Shown: positions 910 through 17,941 of the stretch, piece after piece
How the letters are laid out: every line of letters starts with the position of its first letter
Numbering within the stretch: the first letter of the stretch is position 1
Assembly (NCBI GenBank): GCA_023382935.1
Contig: JAHDXL010000002.1
Location: forward strand, 248,001-312,000
Direction of reading: 5' to 3'
DNA length: 64,000 bases
Source of the DNA: Phycisphaerales bacterium
GTDB lineage: Bacteria > Planctomycetota > Phycisphaerae > Phycisphaerales > UBA1924
The notes under the pieces: model-generated
Told to the model about the DNA's origin: nothing
Databases searched by the model: none
What the model saw: the letters and a program-made list of their open reading frames with translations, nothing else
Translations under genes and position numbers: made by a program

Positions 910-1881
910 ATGGAAGAGCAAGCAGTGGTTGAAGTCGTCGAGGATCGGGGCGCCAGGCTGTGGCTGTGGGCCCGGCGGGCGACGGTCGCCGGTCTGGCTG
1001 CCAGCGTCTTGGTGCACCTGTTTGCCGGGGTGCTGGCTGCATTGTGGACGGTGCGGTACTCCTCGGGCGACTCGGGCGGGTCCGGTTCGCAGGTGGTCGA
1101 CTTTGCGGTGATGACCGAGGCCGAACTGGCCGAACTGTCGAACAGCCAGGTGCAGGTGTCGGCCTCGCACGCTCCGGACGTTTCGGCCCCAAACCTGAGC
1201 GACCTGGAACTGGAGAGCGAGTCGAGCGGCGAGATCGATGCGCTGACGCGTGAACTGGTCGAGGTCGACCTGTCGGCTGGCGGCGGGGACGTGATGTCAG
1301 GCGGTTCTTCGGATGCCTCGCCGGGCGGCGGTGGGCTGAGCGGCGACGGCGCGAGTTTCTTCGGGCTCGAGGCCCAAGGCAGCCGGTTTGCCTACATCGT
1401 GGACGTGTCGAGTTCGATGCGGGCCGAAGGACGGATGGATCGAACGAAGCAGGAACTGGTCCGATCCATCACGGCACTGGCCGAGACTTCGGAAGTGGTG
1501 ATCGTGCTGTACAGCAACGGGCCCATTCCGCTGACCGGGCAGGTGAACTGGGACAAGATGGAACAGCGGAATAAGTTGCGACTTCGGCGGCTGATTACGG
1601 AGATCGAGCCGTCGGGTTCGACCTACCCGCTCGGCGCGTTCGAGCAAGTGCTGAAGATCACCCCGTCGCCGGATGCGATCTACTTCATGACCGATGGCGA
1701 GTTTGACGCCGGCGTTCCAGCGGCCGTGCGATCGCTGAACGGGAGACCTCGCGTGCCGATCCATTGCATCATGTTCGGAGATATCGGCAATGCGCAGGCG
1801 CGGGCCGAGGTTGAGGACATGCTGCGGCGGATCTCGCGCGAGTCGGGCGGGAGATTCAAGCACGTCGGAGAACGTCCGTGA
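910..1881 (+). CDS. TonB-like anchor fused to periplasmic von Willebrand A domain
   Basis: First gene of an ExbB/ExbD operon. From the ATG at 910 it has 323 residues. A short cytoplasmic tail with an Arg pair leads into one membrane helix (residues ~25-48). That helix contains SVLVH, an S-x3-H arrangement (S32, H36) like the one in the TonB membrane helix that contacts ExbB/ExbD. A Ser/Gly-rich linker follows, then a vWA domain with the MIDAS motif DVSSSM (165-170) and a downstream TDGEFD. There is no TonB C-terminal domain. The inferred role is an energised, metal-dependent adhesion or assembly protein reaching the periplasm. An ATG at 871 and a TTG at 844 are alternative starts. Confidence 0.8.
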   Translation: MEEQAVVEVVEDRGARLWLWARRATVAGLAASVLVHLFAGVLAALWTVRYSSGDSGGSGSQVVDFAVMTEAELAELSNSQVQVSASHAPDVSAPNLSDLELESESSGEIDALTRELVEVDLSAGGGDVMSGGSSDASPGGGGLSGDGASFFGLEAQGSRFAYIVDVSSSMRAEGRMDRTKQELVRSITALAETSEVVIVLYSNGPIPLTGQVNWDKMEQRNKLRLRRLITEIEPSGSTYPLGAFEQVLKITPSPDAIYFMTDGEFDAGVPAAVRSLNGRPRVPIHCIMFGDIGNAQARAEVEDMLRRISRESGGRFKHVGERP

Positions 1882-3035
1882 GAATCTGGGTGTGGGCGGT
1901 GCTGGCGGCTTGTGCGGCCTCTGGTATGGCACGGGCCGAGGTGGTGCTGTGGGGCGGGCGTGCGCTGCCCGAAGGCCAGTTGCTGATGTGCACGCCGAAC
2001 GGGATGGTCTTTGAAGACGCCTTCGGCGTGCAGCGGACGGTGAGGTGGGATCTGGTCAAGAGCGTCAGCGGCGCCGAGGCCGAAGCGGCCGCAGGCTTCA
2101 TGGACACGGCTCGAACCGCGTGGCGGGCGCGCACGCGGCTGGAGCGAGGCGACGCGGTCTCGGCCGAGCCGTTGTTTGAAGAGTTGTACCCGCAGTACGA
2201 AGGGCGCGAAGGGGAAATGGCGGCGCTGGTGAGCGAGGGGCTGCTGCGCTGTCGGCTGCGGCGCAGCGCGCAGACCTCGGCGGTGCGGCCCTGGCTGGCG
2301 TATCTCGTGGCCAGGCCGAATGGACCCTATCGCTCCATGGTGACGGGCGCCCTGCGAGCGGCCTGTGACGAACAGACTGGACTGGTGCCATCGCTGGCTC
2401 CGGTCTGGGAATCGACTCCGGCCGTGGAGGCCTTTGCGCGATCGGGCGAACTGGTGGGCTGGTCGGCCGAGGGGGGCAAACTGCCGCGGCGGGCGGAGGT
2501 GCTTTCCGGGTTGTACCTGCACTCGGCGCGCTTCGAGTGCGGGCTGGAGAGCGGGCCGCCGACGATCGAGTTGACCAGTGCGGATCTGCGTGACCCGGGC
2601 ATCGCGCTGGTGCATGCGATGGTGCTGTCACGGACGGGCGGGGCAGATGATCGCACGGGCGCGAGGGCAAGACTGTCGGAGATCGTGAAGTCTGTGCCTG
2701 CCGATCGTTCCTGGATCGAGGCGTGGTGCCGGCTGGCGATCGGGCGATCGCTGTTGATGGAAACAGACCTGGAGCAGCGGCGGCTGGGAGTGGTCGAGTT
2801 GCTGCACCTGCCGGCGCGATTCGCCGACAGTCTTCCCTATCTTGCCGGGCAGGCGCTGGCCGAAGCGGTGGTGGCGCTGGATGAGATGGGCGAAGCGGGC
2901 GGCGCGTCGTCGCTGCTTTCCGAACTGAGCGAACGCTACGGATCGCACGCGGTGCTGTCGTGGCAGCCGATGCGTGAACGATTGGAAGGAACGAGAACAA
3001 GCGGCACGCCGAGCGGGCCGGTGGAGAAGCGTTGA
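1878..3035 (+). CDS. Exported helical-repeat protein, unknown function
   Basis: 385 residues starting with GTG, sharing GTGA with the end of the vWA gene, so translation is probably coupled. The N-terminus is a secretion signal: a hydrophobic stretch with a possible lipobox LAAC (residues 9-12) and a possible signal peptidase I site after MARA. The rest is Ala/Leu/Glu-rich and looks like tetratricopeptide-type helical pairs (for example SAEPLFEELYPQYEGREGEM), though no canonical TPR is clear. I do not recognise a family. Its position between the vWA protein and ExbB suggests a periplasmic partner of the energised complex. Confidence 0.75.
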   Translation: MRIWVWAVLAACAASGMARAEVVLWGGRALPEGQLLMCTPNGMVFEDAFGVQRTVRWDLVKSVSGAEAEAAAGFMDTARTAWRARTRLERGDAVSAEPLFEELYPQYEGREGEMAALVSEGLLRCRLRRSAQTSAVRPWLAYLVARPNGPYRSMVTGALRAACDEQTGLVPSLAPVWESTPAVEAFARSGELVGWSAEGGKLPRRAEVLSGLYLHSARFECGLESGPPTIELTSADLRDPGIALVHAMVLSRTGGADDRTGARARLSEIVKSVPADRSWIEAWCRLAIGRSLLMETDLEQRRLGVVELLHLPARFADSLPYLAGQALAEAVVALDEMGEAGGASSLLSELSERYGSHAVLSWQPMRERLEGTRTSGTPSGPVEKR

Positions 3036-3036
3036 A

Positions 3037-3759
3037 ATGGGAATGTCTTTGCTGACGCTGGCATCGCCCGCGGCCAATGGCACCAGCCGGAGCCTGCTGG
3101 AGTACATCTCGCAGGGTGGATGGATCGGGTACGTGATCGTGATGCTGTCGTTCATCGCGGTGGTGATGATCGTGGCCCAGTCGGTGCGGGTGCGCCGGCA
3201 GGCGTTGGCGCCGCCGGACGCGATCGAGGCGCTCGACCGGCATCTGCGGCAGGGTGACGTGGACGGCGCCATCGCCTTCTGCGACAACTCGGACAACGAC
3301 TCGTTCCTCACGCGCGTCGTGGGTCCGGCATTGATCCGGTGCAGCCGCAGTCCGTTCGGATTCCTCGAACTCAGGGCGGCGTTGGAGGAAGTGGGGCAGT
3401 TGCAGGTGGCCAGGTTGTACCGCCTGACGGACGGGATCAACCTGATCGCGTCGATCGCCCCGATGCTGGGACTGCTGGGCACGGTGGTCGGCATGGTCGG
3501 CGCGTTCGACGCGATTCAGGCGGCCGAGGGCCCGGTGCGGCCGGATGCACTGGCTGGCAACATCTCCGTCGCGCTCATCACCACGGTGCTGGGCCTGCTG
3601 GTGGCCATCCCGTGCACGGCCGCGTACACGTATCTGCGCAACAAGATCGATACACTGGCCGACGAGGTGGGCGACGTGATCGAGGAACTGGCGGCGCACC
3701 TCGAGTCGGCGGCACAGCCGGGAGCGCCGGCGGGGCAGGCGCCGGCGGGGAGGGCGTGA
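3037..3759 (+). CDS. exbB: MotA/TolQ/ExbB proton channel family protein
   Basis: Inner-membrane channel subunit that, with ExbD, uses the proton gradient to drive a TonB/TolA-like partner. It has 240 residues from the ATG at 3037, one base after the preceding stop. Three membrane helices fit the ExbB/TolQ topology: residues ~27-48 (GWIGYVIVMLSFIAVVMIVA), then a cytoplasmic domain, then SIAPMLGLLGTVVGMVGAF and SVALITTVLGLLVAIP. The second of these is the conserved family core. An upstream in-frame ATG at 2974 lies inside the previous gene and is unlikely to be used. Two ExbD genes follow directly. Confidence 0.92.
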   Translation: MGMSLLTLASPAANGTSRSLLEYISQGGWIGYVIVMLSFIAVVMIVAQSVRVRRQALAPPDAIEALDRHLRQGDVDGAIAFCDNSDNDSFLTRVVGPALIRCSRSPFGFLELRAALEEVGQLQVARLYRLTDGINLIASIAPMLGLLGTVVGMVGAFDAIQAAEGPVRPDALAGNISVALITTVLGLLVAIPCTAAYTYLRNKIDTLADEVGDVIEELAAHLESAAQPGAPAGQAPAGRA

Positions 3760-3760
3760 G

Positions 3761-4189
3761 TTGAAACTCGCGACCAGCCAGCGCGAGCGGGTGGCCCGGT
3801 TTGACCTGACGCCCATGATCGACGTCACGTTGCAGTTGATCATTTTCTTCATGTTCAGTTCGCAGTTGGGGCAGATCACCGCGGCGGAGGTGGACCTGCC
3901 GCTCGAGCCGGGCGAGAAGGCCGTGGACCGGGGTCCACCCTCGTTTGTGCTGGACATTTCGCATGAGGGTGGGCTGATGATCGAAGGACGCCCGATCAGC
4001 CAGGCCCGTTTTCTGCGCCTGGTGGATGCGGAAATTGCGCGAGCGGGCGGGCCGGACAACGTGAGCATTCTCGTGAGACCTGATCGCGCGGCGCAGGCGG
4101 GTGTGCTGAACCAGATGGCGCTCGAACTGCGCAGCCGGGGGGTGCGGCGGTGGAAGATCGGGACGACCGACCCGGCGGGGGTGCGCTAG
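3761..4189 (+). CDS. exbD: ExbD/TolR family biopolymer transport protein (first copy)
   Basis: 142 residues, TTG start one base after the exbB stop. It has a short cytoplasmic N-terminus, then LTPMIDVTLQLIIFFMF, the ExbD/TolR membrane helix with the proton-relay aspartate at D21, and a periplasmic domain ending in a VLNQMALELRSRGVRRWKIG segment typical of the family. It should form the ion channel with the neighbouring ExbB. It is followed by a second, different ExbD, an arrangement expected for a heteromeric complex. Confidence 0.92.
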   Translation: MKLATSQRERVARFDLTPMIDVTLQLIIFFMFSSQLGQITAAEVDLPLEPGEKAVDRGPPSFVLDISHEGGLMIEGRPISQARFLRLVDAEIARAGGPDNVSILVRPDRAAQAGVLNQMALELRSRGVRRWKIGTTDPAGVR

Positions 4190-4611
4190 TGCGACTGGTC
4201 AGGCGATCCAGCGAGGTGGTCAGGGTGATCTCGCTGCCGATGACCAGCATGATCGACGTGGTGTTTTTGCTGCTGATCTTTTTCCTGGTGACGGCCAACT
4301 TCTCGGAGCGCGAGAACCGGCTCGAGTCGACCATCCAGTCGGAACGATCAGGCTCCGGCCCGTCCGATCTTCAGCCGCAGATCGTGTCGGTGCAGATGTC
4401 GGGCGGGCGCGTGGTGTTTCGAGTGGGAGAGCGGGCGGTGCAGACTGGCGCGGCCCTGCGGGCGATGCTTGAACAGTTGCCCAAGGAAGCGGGCGTGGCA
4501 ATCAGGGTGGATGACCGGGTGCCGATCCAGGCGGCAGCGACAGCGCTGCAGGCGGCCCACGACGCGGGGTTCGTCAAGAGGACGTATGTACCGGCGACGG
4601 GCAACCAGTAA
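4189..4611 (+). CDS. exbD: ExbD/TolR family biopolymer transport protein (second copy)
   Basis: 140 residues from the GTG at 4189, which overlaps the last base of the preceding TAG stop. The membrane helix SMIDVVFLLLIFFLV carries the conserved aspartate (D23), and a periplasmic domain of ordinary ExbD length follows. It is clearly diverged from the first copy (MIDVTLQ versus MIDVVFL), so this is not a recent duplication. Its last bases overlap the next gene by 26 nt. An upstream in-frame GTG at 4150 is possible but would overlap the first exbD more. Confidence 0.9.
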   Translation: MRLVRRSSEVVRVISLPMTSMIDVVFLLLIFFLVTANFSERENRLESTIQSERSGSGPSDLQPQIVSVQMSGGRVVFRVGERAVQTGAALRAMLEQLPKEAGVAIRVDDRVPIQAAATALQAAHDAGFVKRTYVPATGNQ

Positions 4612-7282
4612 TCGGTGGGGCATTGTCTGTGCCGTGGTGCTGGCCACGGTCCCCGGGGTCGCTCGCGCTCAGGAGCAGCCGCTCGTCGCTCCCGATTCAC
4701 CCGACGCGACCGTCGAACGCTATCTGCAACTGCACGGGCTGGCCCAGTTGCAGGCGACGATGCTGCGGGAACGCCTCGCGACGGCCACGGGCGACGAACG
4801 TCTGCGACTGGCCGAGCGACTGGGTGATCTCTACGCGGAGATGCTGGGCGAAAGCGTGCCGACGGTGCGGCGCCTGGAACTGGAGCGACTCAGCCGCGAA
4901 CTGCTCGAGGCGGTGCCGGGGGTCGATTCCTTCGCGCTGCGCATCAAACTGACTAAGGCGCAGTACCTGCTGGCCGAGCGGATGGGCGAACGATGGCGGC
5001 TGGGGCTGGCCGAAAAGGTCGAGCAGGACGAAGCCATCCGGATGCTGTCCTCGGTACGCGAGTCGTTCCGGGATCTGGGGCGATCACTCAACGCGCGCGT
5101 GGAGTCGTTGGAGCGGCAGCGGCGGCGCGGCACACAGATCGATGAGGCGGCGCTGGCGGCGCAACTGAACGAAGCACAATCGCAGCGATCTTCGGCATTC
5201 TACTACGCGGGCTGGTCGGGCTACTACCTGGCAATGCTCACGGATCGCAAGGACATCGCCGAGGCCGCGATCCAGGATCTGGGCTGGCTGCTCGGGGCCG
5301 AGGGCGGCCCGGTCAGCCTCGACCGGCTGCGAACGGCGCTGCTGCACTTTGAGCACGTGGCGCGTGCGGCGCTGGCGGTGGGGCTGTGTCGCAGCATCGC
5401 GGGCGACCACGGGGGCGCGTTGACGTGGATGCGGACGCTGCGCGAGTCAACAGATTTGCACGAAAGCGTGCGTCAGCAACTCTTCTCGCGCCAGATGGAT
5501 GTGCTGGCGCGGGCCGGGCGCTGGCGAGAACTGGCCGACCACATCGCGGCCGGCGGCCGGCGCCCGATGGAAGTGGCCGATGCTCGTCTTCTGGCGGTGT
5601 TGGCCATGTCGATGCCCGCGCGGGGCGCGAGCGATGACGGGGAAGGGACGGCCCGGAATCTGGCGGCGATGGCCATCTCCGACCTGGTGACGCGTGGGGA
5701 GGTCGGGCACGTGCTCGACCTGCTGCGACGGTTCGGAACGCTTCCGATCGGCGGCGAGGGTTTCATCGTGCGCTATGTGCGCGGGCTGCTGGCATACGAA
5801 GAGGCGCGAGTCGCTCATCGCGACGCGGGTGAAGATGACGCGGTGCCGACTTCGAGGGCTGAAGTCAGCGCCCGATATGGGGCGGCAGCAGACCTGCTGC
5901 GGGCAGCGTTTGGTTCGGAGGACGCGGCGAGATTCCCGGGCGAGCGTGTGCGTGCAGGTCTTTCACTTGGATTGGCCGAGTTTTATCGGGGTCGGCTGCT
6001 CGAGGCTGCCAATCGCTTCGAGGAGACGGCCGCACAGGCGACCGACCCGCAGCGGCGCGAAGAAGCCCTGTGGCTCGCGATCGTCGCCCTCGATCGGCTG
6101 GCGACGCAGGGCCACGAGGAAGCCCGGCAACGCGGCGAACGCCTCGGCGTCGTGTACATGACCGAGTTTCCCTCCACTGAGCGGGCGGCGATTGTCCTGT
6201 TGCGGCGGGCGGAGTCCGATGACGTGCAGGTCGATCGCGCCATCGAGGTGCTCTTCGCGGTCGAACGATCATCGCCGATTTACGAGTCGGCACGCCGCCA
6301 CCTCGGGCGGCTGTTATATCGGGCCTATCGTGCGGCGCCGCCCGAGCGGCGTGACGCCGAGGGATCACGGTTCCTGGCTGTGGCCGAGGAACTGCTCGAC
6401 ATGGATGAGAAGGCGGTGCGCGGGGGTGATGCCAAACCAGCCATGGCGGCAGCGCAGGCGGTCGTTGTCCGTGTGCGACAGATCCTTGACGTGGTGCTCT
6501 CCAGCGCAGCACCAGAACTGCCGCGGGCCGAAGAGGCGCTGGCCCGGCTGGAACGTGTCGCGAACGAGACGGGCATGAGCCTTGACGACCTTCGCCCCGA
6601 GTTGACCTATCGGCGGCTGCAGATCGCCCACGCGGGCGGGCAGGCCGAGCGGGTTGAAGAACTGCTCAACGAATTGACGCGGCTGGGAGGGCGCTTTGCC
6701 AGGTCGGCTGAGCGATTGCTCTATCGCGACGCCCTACGAGCCTGGCAGCGTCCGGGTGCCGGCGTTGAGGAGGCCCGTCAAGTGGTGCGATTCGGCGGGC
6801 GCATCCTCGGCACGCCCGACGAGCCCGGAGATCGGCTGAGCGACGAGGTGCTGCTCGGCGTGGCCGATCGCGTGTCGGAGGCTGCCGAGTTCCTTTGGGA
6901 ACGCGAAGCGGACGAGGCCATGCGAGCCCTGTCGTTGCGATTGACGCGGCAGTGGTTTGAGCGGGGGCGGTGGACGGAGGGCATGCTGCGCCGGCTTGGA
7001 GAAGCGGCGGAAACGGCGCGCGAACTGCGGCTGGCGTTCGAGGCTTGGAACACACTTTCGGCGGCCTACGAGGCGGGCGAGCCGATGTGGTTTGAGGCTC
7101 GGTATCACGCGATGCGGCTGCTCCTGGATCTTGACCCCCAGCGCGGACGTGATGTCGTTTTGCAGCATGAGTTGCTGTACCCGAGTTTCGGTCCCGAGCC
7201 GTGGGGTGAAAAGATCAGGGCGCTGGTGGCCCATGCACGTCTGCTGCCGGACGTGCCGGCACCCCGGGGGACGCGCCCATGA
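4586..7282 (+). CDS. Large exported helical-repeat protein of the ExbBD cluster
   Basis: 898 residues from the ATG at 4586. The N-terminus MYRRRATSN is basic and is followed by a hydrophobic stretch and a signal peptidase I site after VARA, so the protein should be periplasmic. The remainder is Ala/Arg/Leu/Glu-rich helix throughout, in the style of a long TPR-like solenoid. No catalytic motif is visible. Choosing 4586 rather than the in-frame 4469 start removes a basic segment that reads through the exbD gene. It overlaps the next gene by ATGA. I infer a structural scaffold working with the ExbB/ExbD/vWA complex. Confidence 0.78.
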   Translation: MYRRRATSNRWGIVCAVVLATVPGVARAQEQPLVAPDSPDATVERYLQLHGLAQLQATMLRERLATATGDERLRLAERLGDLYAEMLGESVPTVRRLELERLSRELLEAVPGVDSFALRIKLTKAQYLLAERMGERWRLGLAEKVEQDEAIRMLSSVRESFRDLGRSLNARVESLERQRRRGTQIDEAALAAQLNEAQSQRSSAFYYAGWSGYYLAMLTDRKDIAEAAIQDLGWLLGAEGGPVSLDRLRTALLHFEHVARAALAVGLCRSIAGDHGGALTWMRTLRESTDLHESVRQQLFSRQMDVLARAGRWRELADHIAAGGRRPMEVADARLLAVLAMSMPARGASDDGEGTARNLAAMAISDLVTRGEVGHVLDLLRRFGTLPIGGEGFIVRYVRGLLAYEEARVAHRDAGEDDAVPTSRAEVSARYGAAADLLRAAFGSEDAARFPGERVRAGLSLGLAEFYRGRLLEAANRFEETAAQATDPQRREEALWLAIVALDRLATQGHEEARQRGERLGVVYMTEFPSTERAAIVLLRRAESDDVQVDRAIEVLFAVERSSPIYESARRHLGRLLYRAYRAAPPERRDAEGSRFLAVAEELLDMDEKAVRGGDAKPAMAAAQAVVVRVRQILDVVLSSAAPELPRAEEALARLERVANETGMSLDDLRPELTYRRLQIAHAGGQAERVEELLNELTRLGGRFARSAERLLYRDALRAWQRPGAGVEEARQVVRFGGRILGTPDEPGDRLSDEVLLGVADRVSEAAEFLWEREADEAMRALSLRLTRQWFERGRWTEGMLRRLGEAAETARELRLAFEAWNTLSAAYEAGEPMWFEARYHAMRLLLDLDPQRGRDVVLQHELLYPSFGPEPWGEKIRALVAHARLLPDVPAPRGTRP

Positions 7283-9987
7283 CGCCCTCTTCGCATATGG
7301 ACGGCATCATCGCCCGCTTCCTAGGCCCCGAGGCCGCGACCGGAGGCCCGCACGCGCTGCTCGGCCTTGCCGCGGGCGCATCGACTCACTTCGAGATTCT
7401 CAACGCCCGCGACCGGCAGTTGCGGCGTGTCGACCTGCACGCGGAAGGTGCGACTCCCGCGGCTGACGAGGTGCGGCTGGCGCTGCACGCCGCTGCGGCG
7501 CAGTTGCTCAATCCGTCGGTGCGTGAACACCTGCGTGCGAGCGGCCTGGCCGAGCGGCGTCGTGCGGCGATGCTGGGACTCGAACGCGACGTCGTGATGA
7601 TGCTGGGCATGTACGGCGGATGGACCAGGCGCAGTCTGCCTCGCCTAGTGGCGCTGGCACACGCGCGCGGGCTGCGGGCGAACGACGTGGCCCAAGCCGT
7701 GCGCAGCATCGCTCAGAGACGGGCGAGGCCGAAACCGGTCGTTGCGAGATCAGGTGCTGCGTGCGTCCCGGTCGGGGGTGCGTCACCGCAGGTGGTTGCT
7801 CGGCATCAGCGTGCCGGGCTGATCATCGGAATCGTGGCGATCTGTTCGATCCTGGCGGCCGGTGTGGTGATTCGTGTGGCGCTTGAGCCGGGCTCCAGGC
7901 GTGGGGACGAGGTCGCGGCGATGCCTGTGCCGCGTGATCGGACTCCTTCGACCATCGTGCTGGCGCCGGAGAAGGTCGCTGACGAGCAGGTCCGGCCGTC
8001 GGCACAGGCCCCGCCCGAAGCGGAGCGAACTGAGGTCTTGCCGTTGCTGGAGCGTGCGATCTCGCTGACCTCGGCTGATCCGCGGCAGGCCGAGCAACTG
8101 GGTGTCGAGGCGGTGCGTGGGCTCTCGCGACACTGGCTGGAGTTTGACGCGGCCCAGCGTGCCCGCTCGCAGGACGCTGTGCTCGAGTTGATGTACCGGC
8201 TGGGCGGCTCGTCGATGAGTACGCGCCCCATGCTCGAGGCCGTGGGCGCCGGGGCCGAACTGCTGCGGCCCGAACGGGCGATGACTGGTGGTGACGATGT
8301 GGCCAGGGCCGCGTGGTCGATCGGCATGCTGACGCGGCTGCGCCGCGAGAGCGACATTTCGGCCCAGGCGCAGATGCTGATTGACCGGTGGCTCGGCTCG
8401 GCTCTGGTGGGCGTTCGTCCGGCGCAGGCCAGTTTTGCCGAGGGAGCGATCGCCGCGCTTCAGGCGATGGCTCCGGCGCTGGCGGGGCATGATCCTGGTG
8501 ATCCCGGTGCCTGGCGGGCCTGGGCCCGCGGCGTGGTGGTGCTCACCGAGAGCGACGCGGGCCGCCGGGCGATCCTGCTCGCACAGGGCGGCGAGCGCGT
8601 GCTGGTCTCCAGGCTCGGGCCGCAGCGGTCATCGGGCGTCTTCGAGGCAATCGGCGCCGTGATCGATGCCATGCCGTGGCAGACGGCCGAATCGCGGCAG
8701 TGGTTCGTGCGCCAGTTCGACAATCGCGATGTGAACACGCCGGCGCTCAGCGCCGCCACGCAGGCGCTGGTCGCCCGCGGCGGTGTGGAGAACATCGACC
8801 CGACCATGGTGCTGCCCGCCAACGCCAGCGATCTGGCTCGCCGCGCTCTGCGCGATCGCTACGTCGATGCATGGAACATCAGTGAGCCGGGCTCGGATAC
8901 CGAGGTGCTGGAGCGCCTCGAGCGCGCGCTGGCCGAACTGGACGCCGGCCTGACCCGCACGAGCACCGGAGATCAGATGCTTCGCAGCGCCGTGGGCTAT
9001 GCGCGTCTCAACGCTGCTGCGGCTGCACGCTGGCAGGGAGACGGCGGCGTGGCGATCCAGATGCTCGAACACTATCGCGTGCCCGATTCTGCTCTCTCGC
9101 GAGCGGGGCGCGGGCCCGACTTGTCCGATGGTTCAGACGGCAACTGGGCCGAGCGGTATCTTCAGCAGGGCGCCAACATCGATCGTCGTCTGGAACTGCT
9201 CGGTGAACTGCGGAGCCGAGGCGGCAGCCGGCTGGGGCCGATCGATGCCGAAGTGGTCGTCGCCGAGGCGCTGCGCGGCAGCGGGCGCGGGGTGCGTGAA
9301 CTGGCGCGCGCGGTGGTCGAGCAGTACGGATCATCACCCGCGGTTGTCAATGCGCTGCTCGAAGAGGCTCCTCGCATTCCGCCCATTCCTTCGATGTCCA
9401 ACCTCGTCTCCGGCATCACTCTCTCGCCTCTGCCCGACCGCAACAGTCCGCAGTGGCGTGCGGCCGTGCGCCGTGCGCTGGTCGAACGCATGCTCGAACT
9501 GCTCAGCGCCGAGGGCGACACCGCGGCGATCGACCTGCTCGCGTCACTGCTCGACGATGCATACATGGAGCGGGCCTCGGCGAACCGCGCGGTCTCTCCG
9601 TCCGGCAATGGCCCGTCACAGTCGTGCGAGCGATCAGCGATGCAGATGCGTGCGAGATGGACCCAACTGGCCGAGCGGCTGCCGCCAGCGCGCCTGAACA
9701 TCACGCTGTCGGAGGTCGAACGTCGAAGAACCGGCCGCATGGCGCTCGCACGCGGCTTGGTGCAGCAGTTCATCGTCGAGCAGATTGCCCTGGCCGAGAC
9801 GATGGCTCTTGTGGTCGCCGCTGAAAGGCCCGACCTGTCGGTCTCCGTGCAGGGGGTGCTCGATCAACTCGATGCCGACGTGCAGCGGTCCAACCACGTG
9901 TTCGAGCAGGTGGCCCGGGCGGAGCGCGCGATGGTCGAGTTATGGGAACTGCGGCTCGGGCTGGTCGTGGGCGGGGGAAGTGGATGA
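7279..9987 (+). CDS. Large single-pass membrane protein with J-domain-like N-terminus
   Basis: 902 residues; its ATG overlaps the previous stop (ATGA). Residues ~20-95 have the feel of a degenerate J domain: HALLGLAAGAS at the start, then helices ending LLNPSVREHLRASG, but no HPD motif is present. A single membrane helix lies at ~residues 178-200 (GLIIGIVAICSILAAGVVIRV), giving a cytoplasmic head of about 175 residues and a ~700-residue periplasmic part that is Ala/Leu/Arg-rich and helical. No enzyme motif is seen. It could link cytoplasmic state to the envelope complex. The J-domain likeness is inference. Confidence 0.75.
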   Translation: MTPSSHMDGIIARFLGPEAATGGPHALLGLAAGASTHFEILNARDRQLRRVDLHAEGATPAADEVRLALHAAAAQLLNPSVREHLRASGLAERRRAAMLGLERDVVMMLGMYGGWTRRSLPRLVALAHARGLRANDVAQAVRSIAQRRARPKPVVARSGAACVPVGGASPQVVARHQRAGLIIGIVAICSILAAGVVIRVALEPGSRRGDEVAAMPVPRDRTPSTIVLAPEKVADEQVRPSAQAPPEAERTEVLPLLERAISLTSADPRQAEQLGVEAVRGLSRHWLEFDAAQRARSQDAVLELMYRLGGSSMSTRPMLEAVGAGAELLRPERAMTGGDDVARAAWSIGMLTRLRRESDISAQAQMLIDRWLGSALVGVRPAQASFAEGAIAALQAMAPALAGHDPGDPGAWRAWARGVVVLTESDAGRRAILLAQGGERVLVSRLGPQRSSGVFEAIGAVIDAMPWQTAESRQWFVRQFDNRDVNTPALSAATQALVARGGVENIDPTMVLPANASDLARRALRDRYVDAWNISEPGSDTEVLERLERALAELDAGLTRTSTGDQMLRSAVGYARLNAAAAARWQGDGGVAIQMLEHYRVPDSALSRAGRGPDLSDGSDGNWAERYLQQGANIDRRLELLGELRSRGGSRLGPIDAEVVVAEALRGSGRGVRELARAVVEQYGSSPAVVNALLEEAPRIPPIPSMSNLVSGITLSPLPDRNSPQWRAAVRRALVERMLELLSAEGDTAAIDLLASLLDDAYMERASANRAVSPSGNGPSQSCERSAMQMRARWTQLAERLPPARLNITLSEVERRRTGRMALARGLVQQFIVEQIALAETMALVVAAERPDLSVSVQGVLDQLDADVQRSNHVFEQVARAERAMVELWELRLGLVVGGGSG

Positions 9988-10949
9988 TGTGCAGCCCGGC
10001 CATATGGTGGTGGTTGATATCGCTGGCGGCATGCGGTCTTGTCGGCGCGCGTCCGCAGCAGGCCGCGCCCCCCACCGCGCCGCCCGCGAACTCGAGCCTG
10101 AACGATCGACTCGAATCGCTCCATCCGTCCGATCCCCAGGCGTACTTCCTGCTCGGCGAGGAACTGGCGGCTGAGCCGCAGACGCCGGGGAATCTTGAAC
10201 TCGCCCAGAGGCTCTACGTGCTGGCGATTGTGCTGGCGTCGAAGGACGAGTCCCTGCGCACGATCGCGGCCGGGTCGGCACTGGCGCTGCTCGACATCAC
10301 GCGCTCCGAGGCCGACCGGCGGGCGCTGCGATCCATCTCCAGCGCGCTCGATGCGCGCTTCGGTACGCGCGACTGGAGCCGTTCGACGGAGGCGAGCGTC
10401 AGCGATGATGTGGCCTATGCCGCGGCGACGACGGTGGGGGCCATTCGCGCGGGCATGGGCGCATTGGTGCGCAACGAACTCAAACGCCCGGAGATTCGGT
10501 CGCTCATCGACCGCTTCTCTGCCCTTATCACCGGCTCGCCCGGGCAGAACATTCTGCCGACGCTTGAGCGTGCGGCCGAGGCCTGGCCCTGTCCCGAGTG
10601 CCGCAACGAGCGCATCGTCACCAAGCGACACACCGGGCAGGTCGAGCGCGTGCTGTGCTACACCTGCGGGGGCAATCCCGGTCCCACTCTCACGCGCGAG
10701 CAGTTCATCGGGCAGTTGCGATTCGAGGCCCAGGTTCTGAACAGCACGCCGCGATCTTGGGGAGCCCAGGTTGCTGCCGACCTCGGCGCACCGCTCCGCG
10801 AGGCCGATATCGCCGAACTGCCTATCCGCTTCGGCATTGACGTCACGCTTGCGTGGTATCGCGGCGGCGCCTGGGTGGCCGATCCGGGCCAAGGCGACTT
10901 CGGGGGCGAGGATGCTCTGTCGCCCGATCCCGCAGACCCATCCCCATAG
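9984..10949 (+). CDS. Putative lipoprotein with zinc ribbon
   Basis: 321 residues from the ATG at 9984, overlapping the previous stop (ATGA). A Trp-rich hydrophobic N-terminus ends in LAAC, a good lipobox. The n-region has no positive charge with this start; an upstream ATG at 9942 would add an Arg/Lys-rich segment, so the start is uncertain. Near residues 202 and 225 it has CPEC and CYTC, two Cys pairs spaced as a zinc ribbon. Zinc ribbons are unusual in an exported lipoprotein. It ends the ExbB/ExbD operon; about 70 bp without a clear terminator follow. Confidence 0.7.
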   Translation: MMCSPAIWWWLISLAACGLVGARPQQAAPPTAPPANSSLNDRLESLHPSDPQAYFLLGEELAAEPQTPGNLELAQRLYVLAIVLASKDESLRTIAAGSALALLDITRSEADRRALRSISSALDARFGTRDWSRSTEASVSDDVAYAAATTVGAIRAGMGALVRNELKRPEIRSLIDRFSALITGSPGQNILPTLERAAEAWPCPECRNERIVTKRHTGQVERVLCYTCGGNPGPTLTREQFIGQLRFEAQVLNSTPRSWGAQVAADLGAPLREADIAELPIRFGIDVTLAWYRGGAWVADPGQGDFGGEDALSPDPADPSP

Positions 10950-11022: not shown

Positions 11023-11412
11023 ATGAGCCAAGCCGAGAGTGCGACCCCCGCGTCGAACACCTTCAAGCCCGAGATTTCGTATGACGACTTCGTAAAGGTC
11101 GATCTGCGGGTGGCGCGCATCGTGGCCGCCGAGCCACACCCCAACGCCGACCGCCTGTTCAAACTGCAACTGGATGATGGATCGGGACAACCCCGTCAGA
11201 TCTGCGCGGGTATTCGCGGGCACTACGAGGCCGACCAGATCGTGGGACGACAGATCATCATCGTCGCCAATCTTGCCCCGCGCAAGATTCGTGGCGAGGA
11301 ATCGCGGGGCATGCTGCTGGCCGCCAGCGACGCACCCAAGGAGAGCGGCGATCGCCGGGTGATTCTGCTCACGCCGATGAGCGAGATTGCGCCTGGTTCG
11401 ACGGTTTCCTGA
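11023..11412 (+). CDS. Stand-alone tRNA-binding domain protein (CsaA/Trbp111/MetRS-beta type)
   Basis: 129 residues. The OB-fold tRNA-binding domain is recognisable from YDDFVKVDLRVARIVAAEPH, then ADRLFKLQLDDG, VNA-type strand IIIVANLAPRKIRGEESRGM and the terminal SEIAPGSTVS. These match the domain found at the MetRS C-terminus and in free Trbp111/CsaA proteins, where it binds the outer corner of tRNA. There is no catalytic synthetase domain. A GAGAGGAG ribosome site precedes the ATG. It is separated from the ExbBD operon and faces a convergent minus-strand gene ten bases away. Confidence 0.88.
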   Translation: MSQAESATPASNTFKPEISYDDFVKVDLRVARIVAAEPHPNADRLFKLQLDDGSGQPRQICAGIRGHYEADQIVGRQIIIVANLAPRKIRGEESRGMLLAASDAPKESGDRRVILLTPMSEIAPGSTVS

Positions 11413-12373: not shown

Positions 12374-12855
12374 CAGATTGACTCCTCGGTCTCAAGCAGA
12401 GCCTCCTCGGCCTGATCGAACAGCGACTCGTCGAGTCCGCCGATCGAGGCCGCTCGCTCATTCAGGGAGTTCAGGTTCGGCAGATCCTGCTGCAGCCACG
12501 CGACGGTGGCAATGAGTTCGTCGACCTCTTCCGCCGGCGTCAGCGTGTCGCCCCGCGCGATCGGCCCGGGGACCGGACCAATCGACGGCTTGGAAGACCA
12601 CAGCATCAGGGCAATCGAGGCGACGATCAGCATTGAAGCCGCCGAGGCCAGCACCACGCGGTCACGCCACCAGGACCGTTCGCGGGCATGAGCGAACGAG
12701 AGAGGCTGTGGCATGAGCACCTCGCGCTGCACTGCATCCAGGATACGAGCCTCGAAACCGGCGTCGGGCTGGGCGCGATGAGCACGCCCCAGCGCGTCCA
12801 GCGCCTGCTCGACCAACTCGATGCCGGGGTCGTTCTGGAAGGATGTGTCGCTCAT
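12373..12855 (-). CDS. Putative membrane-bound anti-sigma factor
   Basis: 160 residues: a cytoplasmic N-terminal part of ~65 residues, one membrane helix (VVLASAASMLIVASIALMLW, ~68-87) and an acidic periplasmic tail. There is no zinc-binding HxxxCxxC motif. The anti-sigma role is inferred from its place: it starts inside the stop of an ECF sigma gene (ATGA overlap) and has the expected single-pass topology. The periplasmic tail could be the signal-sensing part working with the exported protein encoded next. Confidence 0.7.
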   Translation of the reverse strand: MSDTSFQNDPGIELVEQALDALGRAHRAQPDAGFEARILDAVQREVLMPQPLSFAHARERSWWRDRVVLASAASMLIVASIALMLWSSKPSIGPVPGPIARGDTLTPAEEVDELIATVAWLQQDLPNLNSLNERAASIGGLDESLFDQAEEALLETEESI

Positions 12856-13490
12856 CGCGAAGACTCCATTTCGTTTTCGTCGGCCGGCGCCTCCATCAAA
12901 TCCCTCAGTTTCCGCAGGGCTCGGTGATGTCGCGCCAGCAGCGTACCCATTGGTTCACCGGTCAGTTCCGCAATCTCCCGAAAACTCAATCCCCCGTGAT
13001 GCCGCAACTCGATGATCTCCCGGTCGGCGTCGGACAGCGTCGCCATCGCCGCTCGCAATGCCTGCACGTCTTCGTCGCTGACGCCGGGCCGGTCGATCGG
13101 GCAGGTCAGATCCTGATCGTGCCCGTTTGATTCGACCATCGAGCGCCGACGCCGACGGATCTCGTCCCGAACCCGGTTCATCGCCACCCGAAAGAGCCAA
13201 GCCTCGAATCGCCCGCTCTCCCGGTACTCTCCCCCGGTCACTTTGCGCGCAACCGTGACGAATACCGACTGAGTCACTTCTTCGGCCGCCTCCTGAGAGT
13301 GGAGTCGGCTGCGTGCCAGCGCAAAGACCCGCCTGCCATAGATGCTGACCAGTTCGGACCATGCGCCGCCCTCACCCGTGGCTGCCCGTTCAAGGAGCGC
13401 GGTCAGCCCTTCCGGCGGGAGTGTGTCCTGACCCCGATCCTGGACCAATTCAGCCCCCTTGTTCAGTGGGCACAACGCCCGGATGGGCAT
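12852..13490 (-). CDS. ECF RNA polymerase sigma factor
   Basis: 212 residues. Sigma region 2 is visible in WSELVSIYGRRVFALARSRL and AAEEVTQSVFVTVARKV, with the region 2.4-like FEAWLFRVAMNRVRDEIRRR. Region 4 is LSDADREIIELRHHGGLSFR followed by EIAELTGEPMGTLLARHHRA, the -35-binding helix-turn-helix. There is no region 1 or 3, as usual for ECF factors. It overlaps the anti-sigma gene, so the pair should be coexpressed and the sigma held at the membrane. The ATG at 13490 is accepted; the first ~25 residues look nonessential and a later start is possible. Confidence 0.92.
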   Translation of the reverse strand: MPIRALCPLNKGAELVQDRGQDTLPPEGLTALLERAATGEGGAWSELVSIYGRRVFALARSRLHSQEAAEEVTQSVFVTVARKVTGGEYRESGRFEAWLFRVAMNRVRDEIRRRRRSMVESNGHDQDLTCPIDRPGVSDEDVQALRAAMATLSDADREIIELRHHGGLSFREIAELTGEPMGTLLARHHRALRKLRDLMEAPADENEMESSR

Positions 13491-13522
13491 GGGATTGCCT
13501 TGGTTGGAGTATGCTCTGAGGC

Positions 13523-13861
13523 ATGGAAATGGTGGCCTATACCGTCTGGGCCCGATTTGATGACCCTGCGGTTCGAGTGGAGTTTTGCAGTTGGCTCCGA
13601 CAGGAGCATATCGGACAGGTCATCGACGCGGGGGCGGCTGAAGCGGACCTGCTGGAGCATGGGCCGTTGCCTCAGGCTCCCGGAGGCGCCATCGAGGTGA
13701 GGTATCTATTTGAGAGTCCGGCGTCGCTTGCGGACTACCTGGAACATCGCATGCCCAAACTGAGGGGTGAGACTCTCAAACGCTTCGGTCATATGCCCGG
13801 AATAAGGTATGAAAGGGTCGATGCCCGGGTGGTCGATCGTTTCGCATCCAAACGCCGATAA
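13523..13861 (+). CDS. DUF4286-like protein
   Basis: 112 residues. MVAYTVWARFDDPAVRVEF, the WLRQEHIGQVIDAG segment, a central VRYLFESPASLADYLEHRMP and a final GIRYERVDARVV fit the small ferredoxin-like-fold DUF4286 family, whose members share the W-x-EH-I arrangement. No catalytic function is known. It is divergent from the ECF sigma gene, with 32 bp between the starts. TATGCT at 13511-13516 may be its -10 element, which would leave almost no leader. Confidence 0.75.
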   Translation: MEMVAYTVWARFDDPAVRVEFCSWLRQEHIGQVIDAGAAEADLLEHGPLPQAPGGAIEVRYLFESPASLADYLEHRMPKLRGETLKRFGHMPGIRYERVDARVVDRFASKRR

Positions 13862-13962
13862 CTGAAGGTCGACCCGATAGCATTGGCCAGCGCGTCTCGG
13901 TGGGACGCTGCCCCCCGAACTTGGCTGCCTCATCGGTGCGTATCCACCTGACCGAGAGGAGT

Positions 13963-14568
13963 TTGGAACTGGACGGTTTGAACGGCATCAGCGATGAGAG
14001 ACTGTTCGAACGCTATCGCAGGGGCGACTCCGACGCGCTGCGAACGCTGATCGAGCGCCATGACGAGGATCTGCTGCGTTTCCTCACGCGGCTGGTGGGT
14101 GATCGTTCGGCTGCGGAGGACGTTTTCCAGGAAACCTTCCTCCAGATTCACCTCTCGGCCGAGTCGTTTGATGCTTCTCGGAGATTTCGCCCGTGGTTGT
14201 TCACGATCGCGGCGAACAAGGGACGCGACTACCTGCGTAAGAGGGGCAGACAGCAGTCGATGGAGGTTTCGGCCCCGGTCGGGGGCGATGGCGAGAGACC
14301 TTCCATCGTGGACTTGATGGAGTTGGATGTTCCGTCGCCGGACACGGCGATGGACGAGAGAGAGCGGGACATATTGGTGCAGCGTGCCCTGTCGGGCCTA
14401 TCCCCGACGATGCGGGAGATTCTCCTTCTCGCGTACTTCCAGAGACTCAGTTATGCCCAGATGGCCGAAGATCTTCAGATACCTTTGGGAACCGTCAAGA
14501 GTCGATTGCACGCGGCGGTGGCGGCCTTTGCCAAACGCTGGCACGAAGTCTCCCGCGGCTCAAACTGA
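13963..14568 (+). CDS. ECF RNA polymerase sigma factor (second)
   Basis: About 201 residues. Region 2: DERLFERYRRGDSDALRTLI, FLTRLVGDRSAAEDVFQETF, then FRPWLFTIAANKGRDYLRKR. Region 4: LSPTMREILLLAYFQRLSYA and QMAEDLQIPLGTVKSRLHAA, a standard helix-turn-helix. The start is unclear: a long frame opens at GTG 13900, but GAGAGGAG at 13954-13961 sits just before TTG 13963, while TTG 13978 is farther away. The next gene, a membrane protein with a pilin-like domain, is probably its anti-sigma factor. Confidence 0.9.
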   Translation: MELDGLNGISDERLFERYRRGDSDALRTLIERHDEDLLRFLTRLVGDRSAAEDVFQETFLQIHLSAESFDASRRFRPWLFTIAANKGRDYLRKRGRQQSMEVSAPVGGDGERPSIVDLMELDVPSPDTAMDERERDILVQRALSGLSPTMREILLLAYFQRLSYAQMAEDLQIPLGTVKSRLHAAVAAFAKRWHEVSRGSN

Positions 14569-17522: not shown

Positions 17523-17606
17523 GCCGGAGTGGCGGAACTGGCAGACGCGGCGGATTCAAAATCCGCTGGGATAAAACCCTTGGGGGTTCGAGTCCCCCCT
17601 CCGGCA
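17523..17606 (+). tRNA. tRNA-Leu (anticodon CAA)
   Basis: 84-nt class II tRNA. The acceptor arms GCCGGAG and CTCCGGC pair exactly, with A as discriminator. The D arm TGGCGGAACTGGCAGACGC is typical of tRNA-Leu. The anticodon arm is GCGGA-TTCAAAA-TCCGC, with CAA in the loop, reading UUG codons. A long variable arm and a GGTTCGAGTCC T loop follow. CCA is not encoded. Confidence 0.96.
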
Positions 17607-17773
17607 TTGTGAGGCGATCGCGTCGGTCGATTCGGGGCCGACGTGGTCGAGTTCCCGAACGGACTCGACCCGGCGCCTTGGCGGGCTCGGCCGTCATCTC
17701 AGATGCCGCCCTGGCCGGTCACCGCGTGGAAGATCGGTACATGACGTTCGGCGCGCGGCTATTCTGCGAAGGC

Positions 17774-17859
17774 GGACCCGTGGCGGAACTGGCAGACGCA
17801 GCGGACTTAAAATCCGCATCCCCCACAAGGGAGTGAGGGTTCGAGTCCCTCCGGGTCCA
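17774..17859 (+). tRNA. tRNA-Leu (anticodon TAA)
   Basis: 86-nt class II tRNA. Acceptor arms GGACCCG and CGGGTCC pair exactly, with A as discriminator. The D arm is identical to that of the neighbouring tRNA-Leu. The anticodon arm is GCGGA-CTTAAAA-TCCGC, anticodon TAA, reading UUA. CCA is not encoded. It lies 167 bp after the other tRNA-Leu; the space between holds no visible gene. Confidence 0.96.
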
Positions 17860-17941
17860 CTCCGGCTCGTTCAGTTCGCCTGGGCTGGCCGCCGCGATTC
17901 CTGACTGGCGCCAGTCTGCTGCAACTGTCCCGGCGAGCCGC

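Follow-up and report, generated by a model that had tools for sequence, protein, structure and literature searches.

A conserved eight-gene operon of planctomycetes probably encodes a proton-driven force machine of the cell envelope with a vWA arm

On what does an ExbB/ExbD proton motor act when four of the genes packed around it match no known family? The question is raised by a locus in contig JAHDXL010000002.1 of a Phycisphaerales bacterium with a 3.7-Mb genome, whose nearest named relatives are MAGs of the Phycisphaerae (planctomycetes). Within the window, by which we mean the whole 64,000-nucleotide stretch of DNA that was analyzed, eight genes (g1 to g8) lie on the plus strand between positions 910 and 10949, in the order vWA protein, exported protein, ExbB, ExbD, ExbD, 898-aa exported protein, 902-aa membrane protein and zinc-ribbon protein. 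The open-reading-frame list and a check of start codons and junctions gave overlaps of 4, 1, 26, 4 and 4 nt and two gaps of 1 nt each, which bears out the tight packing (1–4 nt, once 26 nt) reported in a preliminary description of this DNA. Pfam names four of the eight proteins (vWA, as VWA_3; MotA_ExbB; and ExbD twice), and no Pfam or NCBIfam family above cut-off was found for g2, g6, g7 and g8. The gene g9 (11023..11412, plus strand) encodes a tRNA-binding-domain protein (PF01588, 2e-29) and comes after g8 in many relatives; its profile has no match at two distant f71 loci, and it is probably a housekeeping gene outside the machine proposed here. Beyond the operon, two ORFs that by eye resemble ECF-type sigma factors occupy 12852–14568 (12852–13490, minus strand, and 13900–14568, plus strand), and the span 17523–17860 holds two tRNA-Leu genes, with anticodons caa and taa and 167 nt between them.

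The motor is encoded by three genes in the middle of the operon. g3 (3037..3759; 240 aa; PF01618, 6e-27) is an ExbB/TolQ-like proton-channel subunit, and g4 (3761..4189; 142 aa, TTG start; PF02472, 4e-13) and g5 (4189..4611; 140 aa, GTG start; PF02472, 2e-16) are two distinct ExbD/TolR-like subunits that form separate ortholog groups. Among aligned relatives, the ExbB channel residues are kept (T149 and T183 in 79/79, T182 in 76/79) and the proton-carrying aspartate of each ExbD is invariant (Asp21 of g4 and Asp23 of g5, 78/78 each), as expected of working proton motors. The MotA_ExbB and ExbD domains, the channel threonines and the shaft aspartates that mark an ExbB/TolQ-ExbD/TolR motor are all present.

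TonB and TolA contact their motors through an SHLS motif. The vWA protein g1 (910..1881; 323 aa; VWA_3, 3e-8) is an inner-membrane protein made up of one TM helix (aa 26–44), a linker rich in Gly, Ser and acidic residues, and a periplasmic vWA domain. In an alignment of 90 g1 sequences, Ser32 (88/89) and His36 (89/89), which form an S-x3-H motor-contact signature (1003..1017), are the sole near-invariant positions of this helix, with column entropies of 0.09 and 0.00 bits against 1.0–3.4 bits for the other TM columns, every neighboring column being variable. Compared with the full SHLS motif, the S and H are kept, whereas the L and the second S (columns 43 and 47) are not conserved. Pfam finds no TonB/TolA C-terminal domain in g1 but a vWA domain in its place, in which the five MIDAS residues (D165, S167, S169, T238 and D262; 1402..1695) are invariant in 90/90 relatives. 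The operon had been described as having no TonB or TolA, which is true of domains and not of function, because g1 has the architecture of a vWA force transducer. Judged from its sequence, g1 is itself the obvious TonB/TolA-like transducer, with a TonB/TolA-type motor-contact motif in its helix, and the earlier statement was wrong in substance. Elsewhere in the same genome (contig C4, L048, 12688–13677, minus strand), a protein with a single TM segment, whose N-terminal helix contains SVLLH and which matches no Pfam family, is possibly a second TonB-like transducer.

A new class of vWA force transducers was described in 2025 from several phyla, including Planctomycetes (PMC12204202, Mol Biol Evol). 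Their genes in PVC bacteria adjoin one tolQ-like, two different tolR-like and one TPR gene, and AlphaFold 3 docks the transducers on the edge of the motor through a conserved His; the function of the class is not known, with gliding suggested (PMC12204202). The operon shares with this family an inner-membrane vWA protein with a motor-contact His, one TolQ-like and two TolR-like subunits and a TPR protein, and it has the family's features of a TM Ser and His (88/89 and 89/89), a vWA domain after a linker, and adjacent tolQ/tolR/tolR/TPR genes. It differs in that its vWA gene comes first, upstream of the motor, whereas the PVC gene is often downstream (a tendency, not a strict rule; PMC12204202), and in that the conserved g2, g6, g7 and g8, possibly including the TPR gene of that paper, are joined to the core. 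Since the vWA-TolQ-TolR-TolR-TPR core was published in 2025 (PMC12204202), the operon is a larger variant of a predicted kind, and the earlier picture of four unrecognized partners around an unknown motor understates prior knowledge.

Of the joined proteins, g6 (4586..7282; 898 aa) is an exported TPR-like alpha-solenoid, predicted by AlphaFold2 to be all-helical with a mean pLDDT of 91.2, and its relatives match TPR models. Its structural matches by Foldseek and VIA-align were generic TPR superhelices only, mostly eukaryotic and with a whole-chain TM of about 0.2, and a functional reading of g6 from fold matches was dropped. The predicted fold of g7 (7279..9987; 902 aa; AlphaFold2, pLDDT 82.5) consists of a cytoplasmic helical domain (aa 1–149), a single TM helix (aa 178–202, present by hydropathy in 35/35 relatives), a disordered linker and a periplasmic helical array (aa 250–899). 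A comparison of g7 with the PDB gave no match at E<=0.001, and a by-eye reading of the N-terminus as J-domain-like was rejected, Pfam giving no DnaJ match. g8 (9984..10949; 321 aa), conserved in position, is an exported protein with a C-terminal zinc ribbon and a lipobox, LAAC. It had been called a zinc-ribbon lipoprotein, and of this name the ribbon stands, its cysteines being largely conserved in 70 aligned g8 sequences (C206 in 67, C225 in 69), whereas the lipoprotein is not a family trait, because the lipobox Cys, C17, occurs in 4/70, namely the window and a few relatives. g2 (1878..3035; 385 aa) belongs to no known family, has a signal-peptide-like N-terminus consistent with export, and is held at the same place in relatives.

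A search of planctomycete genomes for the gene order, suggested in the preliminary description, was carried out by scanning named public genomes with the vWA alignment and taking the best 80 vWA relatives. Up to the ends of their contigs, all 80 loci show the gene order of the operon, six of them without the ExbB/ExbD block: g1-g2 is always kept, g6-g7-g8 follow in order where the contig continues, and ExbB with both ExbD is present in 70/76 testable loci. This recurrence is far beyond chance. The large proteins are therefore conserved with the motor, and the ExbB/ExbD genes of relatives were not found beside ordinary TonB/TolA instead, the two points on which the earlier reading could have failed. 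Nearly all of the 80 loci carry a planctomycete label, mostly Phycisphaerae. One contig labeled Cyanobacteria (RHKP01000002.1, L056) carries the operon with a vWA protein of 87% identity to that of the window; the label of this MAG is probably wrong, or the bin mixed. The locus adjoins, divergently, a gene cluster common to 64 loci, whose genes look by eye like those for UMP kinase and ribosome recycling factor; such a shared setting suggests vertical inheritance.

When g6 and g7 were used as protein queries, both had relatives in the window's family and order, g6 also in the distant family f71, and the DNA around these matches has the full gene order, f71 included. In f71, g7 and g8 are strongly diverged, the g7 slot holding a protein of 1195 or 1233 aa with little sequence similarity to g7, and the vWA protein carries a CxxC-CxxC segment at its start, ahead of the TM helix. 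A profile search of 294 planctomycete genomes recovered full-length g6 in 35, comprising 15/15 sampled from the window's family, 10 from f4, 2 from f93 and 8 from f71, with none in f2, f3, f6 or f7; we took weak partial matches (E 1e-4 to 1e-14) outside f1, f4, f93 and f71 to be paralogs or TPR noise. In 32 of the 35 genomes g1 lies closely upstream of g6, with ExbB between them in 29 of these 32, and the other three are contig ends or breaks, verified for G306, which is thereby ruled out as a split locus, and judged from coordinates for G337 and G420. That the further partners are inherited together across three families of Phycisphaerales and in one distant family of planctomycetes is a new observation.

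The motor block can leave the locus. In the 90-sequence set, seven loci are without ExbB-ExbD-ExbD (G270/L034, L098, L099, L104, L124, L125 and L129) and retain g1, g2, g6, g7 and g8, except for L098, whose contig ends within g6; S-x3-H is kept at 7/7. On the g6 tree, motor absence takes 5 changes to explain, and well-supported branches force 4 of these. That the motor genes have left the locus repeatedly, with branch support for at least four such events, is also new. The survey of the 294 planctomycete genomes added two motor-less loci, G314 and G302. In G425, G426, G427, G429 and G302, a cognate-type triad is encoded elsewhere in the genome, which rules out plain motor loss and makes "relocated" the right word for these five; here the motor was retained with the arm after unlinking. 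In G270 (about 98% complete) and G314, no cognate-type ExbB was found at the thresholds used, indicating that the motor is not strictly obligatory or is substitutable, and its absence from G428 and G430 is less certain since the completeness of these genomes is not given. G270 has two other ExbB-ExbD-ExbD triads, with weak scores, one of which (L047) resembles by eye the triad beside tsaE in the window's genome and in G095. In the window's genome this is an orphan ExbB-ExbD-ExbD triad beside tsaE/yacG (contig C4, L044, 7414–8968), a candidate substitute motor, and by eye a similar triad lies beside a tsaE-like gene in G095 (L054). We infer that motor and arm work together yet need not be encoded together, and that a non-cognate motor may be used in some lineages.

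Related sets occur outside the eight-gene form. Families f5 and f7 have the order vWA, ExbB, ExbD, ExbD and a protein of about 790 aa with weak g6 similarity, with no g2 between vWA and ExbB. G121 carries, as well as the eight-gene operon, a six-gene paralogous set (L049, 3818–10137: vWA, g2-like, ExbB, ExbD, ExbD and an 827-aa exported protein) with the same core order as the operon but without g7 and g8 and with low scores to the operon profiles, and G024 has a vWA/g2-like/ExbB/ExbD set. These sets indicate that the core is widespread and that the eight-gene form is a restricted variant. A Tol-like set was also observed at L140 (2639–10466), where genes for a TPR protein (1078 aa), ExbB, ExbD and a PD40 beta-propeller protein of 1095 aa stand in a row.

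Given these results, we consider it likely that the operon encodes a force machine of the cell envelope that is self-contained, driven by protons and composed of a motor, a vWA arm and a scaffold. ExbB would be the inner-membrane channel with the g4 and g5 ExbD proteins as a central shaft within it, so that proton flow would move the shaft. g1 would take the role of TonB/TolA, its single helix docking on the motor via S-x3-H and its flexible linker spanning the periplasm. Where TonB/TolA have their C-terminal domain, g1 would grip a partner with its vWA domain, whose metal site is intact. A periplasmic scaffold or relay would be formed by the solenoid g6 together with the exported g2 and g8, and g7 would link it to the inner membrane and cytoplasm; g2, g6, g7 and g8 are predicted to contact g1. 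Most likely, then, the vWA arm would be driven by proton flow through ExbB/ExbD and would work against a TPR scaffold in the periplasm. The preliminary proposal, in which a dedicated motor is scaffolded by the large helical proteins, gains support, since the large proteins are co-conserved and g6 is predicted to be a helical solenoid (pLDDT 91). What speaks against the machine is the variable L and second S of SHLS in g1, the strong divergence of g7 and g8 in f71, and the two motor-less genomes, G270 and G314, in which no cognate-type ExbB reached the threshold. Like ExbB-ExbD-TonB and TolQ-TolR-TolA, the operon combines this motor family with the S and H of SHLS in the transducer helix, but it differs from them in having a vWA for the TonB/TolA C-terminal domain, two ExbD, no conserved L or second S of SHLS, and no receptor, TolB or Pal.

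Several other readings have to be weighed against this machine. The ExbB/ExbD triad and the vWA/helical proteins might be two independent units merely sharing an operon, as the ability of the triad to leave the locus and the at least two genomes that keep the remainder without a cognate-type motor would allow; we regard this as very improbable given that cognate-type triads persist elsewhere in five genomes, that S-x3-H is kept throughout, and that a vWA-ExbB-ExbD-ExbD-TPR-like adjacency recurs in f5 and f7. It is unlikely, though less so, that the machine stands in for Tol-Pal in bacteria without it, so that the outer membrane stays attached and follows the constricting cell. TonB_C (PF03544) finds no match in the window's genome, and TolB_N (PF04052) none in seven genomes including it, controls such as E. 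coli matching in both cases, so that a Tol-Pal-like duty is possible, and the constant chromosomal neighborhood of the locus and its presence in 15/15 sampled family genomes fit a housekeeping role. However, most of the phylum lacks full-length g6, as do f2 and f3, two families within the same order, and in the f71 genomes G121 and G205 the operon coexists with a TonB_C protein; this patchy distribution and co-occurrence weaken such a duty.

The best analogy by parts list is the Agl-Glt machinery of Myxococcus (AglR, AglQ, AglS, GltG and GltD/E/C), which likewise has one TolQ-like and two TolR-like subunits (PMC3169522), together with several TPR proteins that are exported and a transducer bearing a TonB feature. 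A machine of this type for gliding or surface adhesion, in which the vWA domain is the force-bearing contact, is also in line with the gliding suggested by the 2025 paper (PMC12204202). The likeness is one in kind of parts; GltG has FHA and TonB domains and not vWA, and Glt has outer-membrane parts, whereas the operon has no outer-membrane barrel or surface adhesin and its vWA is periplasmic, being tethered to the inner membrane. We know of no gliding planctomycete of this class and hold this reading to be quite doubtful. TonB-like transducers usually drive import, and energized uptake of large molecules through planctomycete envelope structures would fit this. Planctomycetes take up macromolecules, and their crateriform pits join the inner and outer membranes (PMC5394234), making the pits a possible site of action. 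Against uptake, which we judge decidedly improbable, the operon has no outer-membrane receptor, and no direct link between operon and pits was found. The main text of planctomycete essential-gene and cell-biology papers (PMC10632474, PMC5394234) does not mention ExbB/ExbD.

For the proton-driven envelope machine that we favor, a first guess at the end task is that it mechanically maintains or tethers the outer membrane or a surface structure. More tentatively, it may be a trans-envelope machine specific to planctomycetes, with a vWA "hand" in the place of that of TonB/TolA, working against a helical scaffold of four proteins on a task absent from model bacteria; once its motor genes have left, it would be driven by a motor whose genes lie elsewhere, perhaps a borrowed motor in some lineages. 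To our knowledge, proton-driven force machines with known tasks are few: Tol-Pal, TonB, flagella and gliding. All sampled genomes of the window's family carry the present machine, whose chromosomal neighbors are common to most sampled relatives, and it is well enough defined to test, with a motor, an arm, a scaffold and residues to mutate. The motor-less lineages that keep the motor-contact residues of the arm offer a natural experiment on transducers switching motors.
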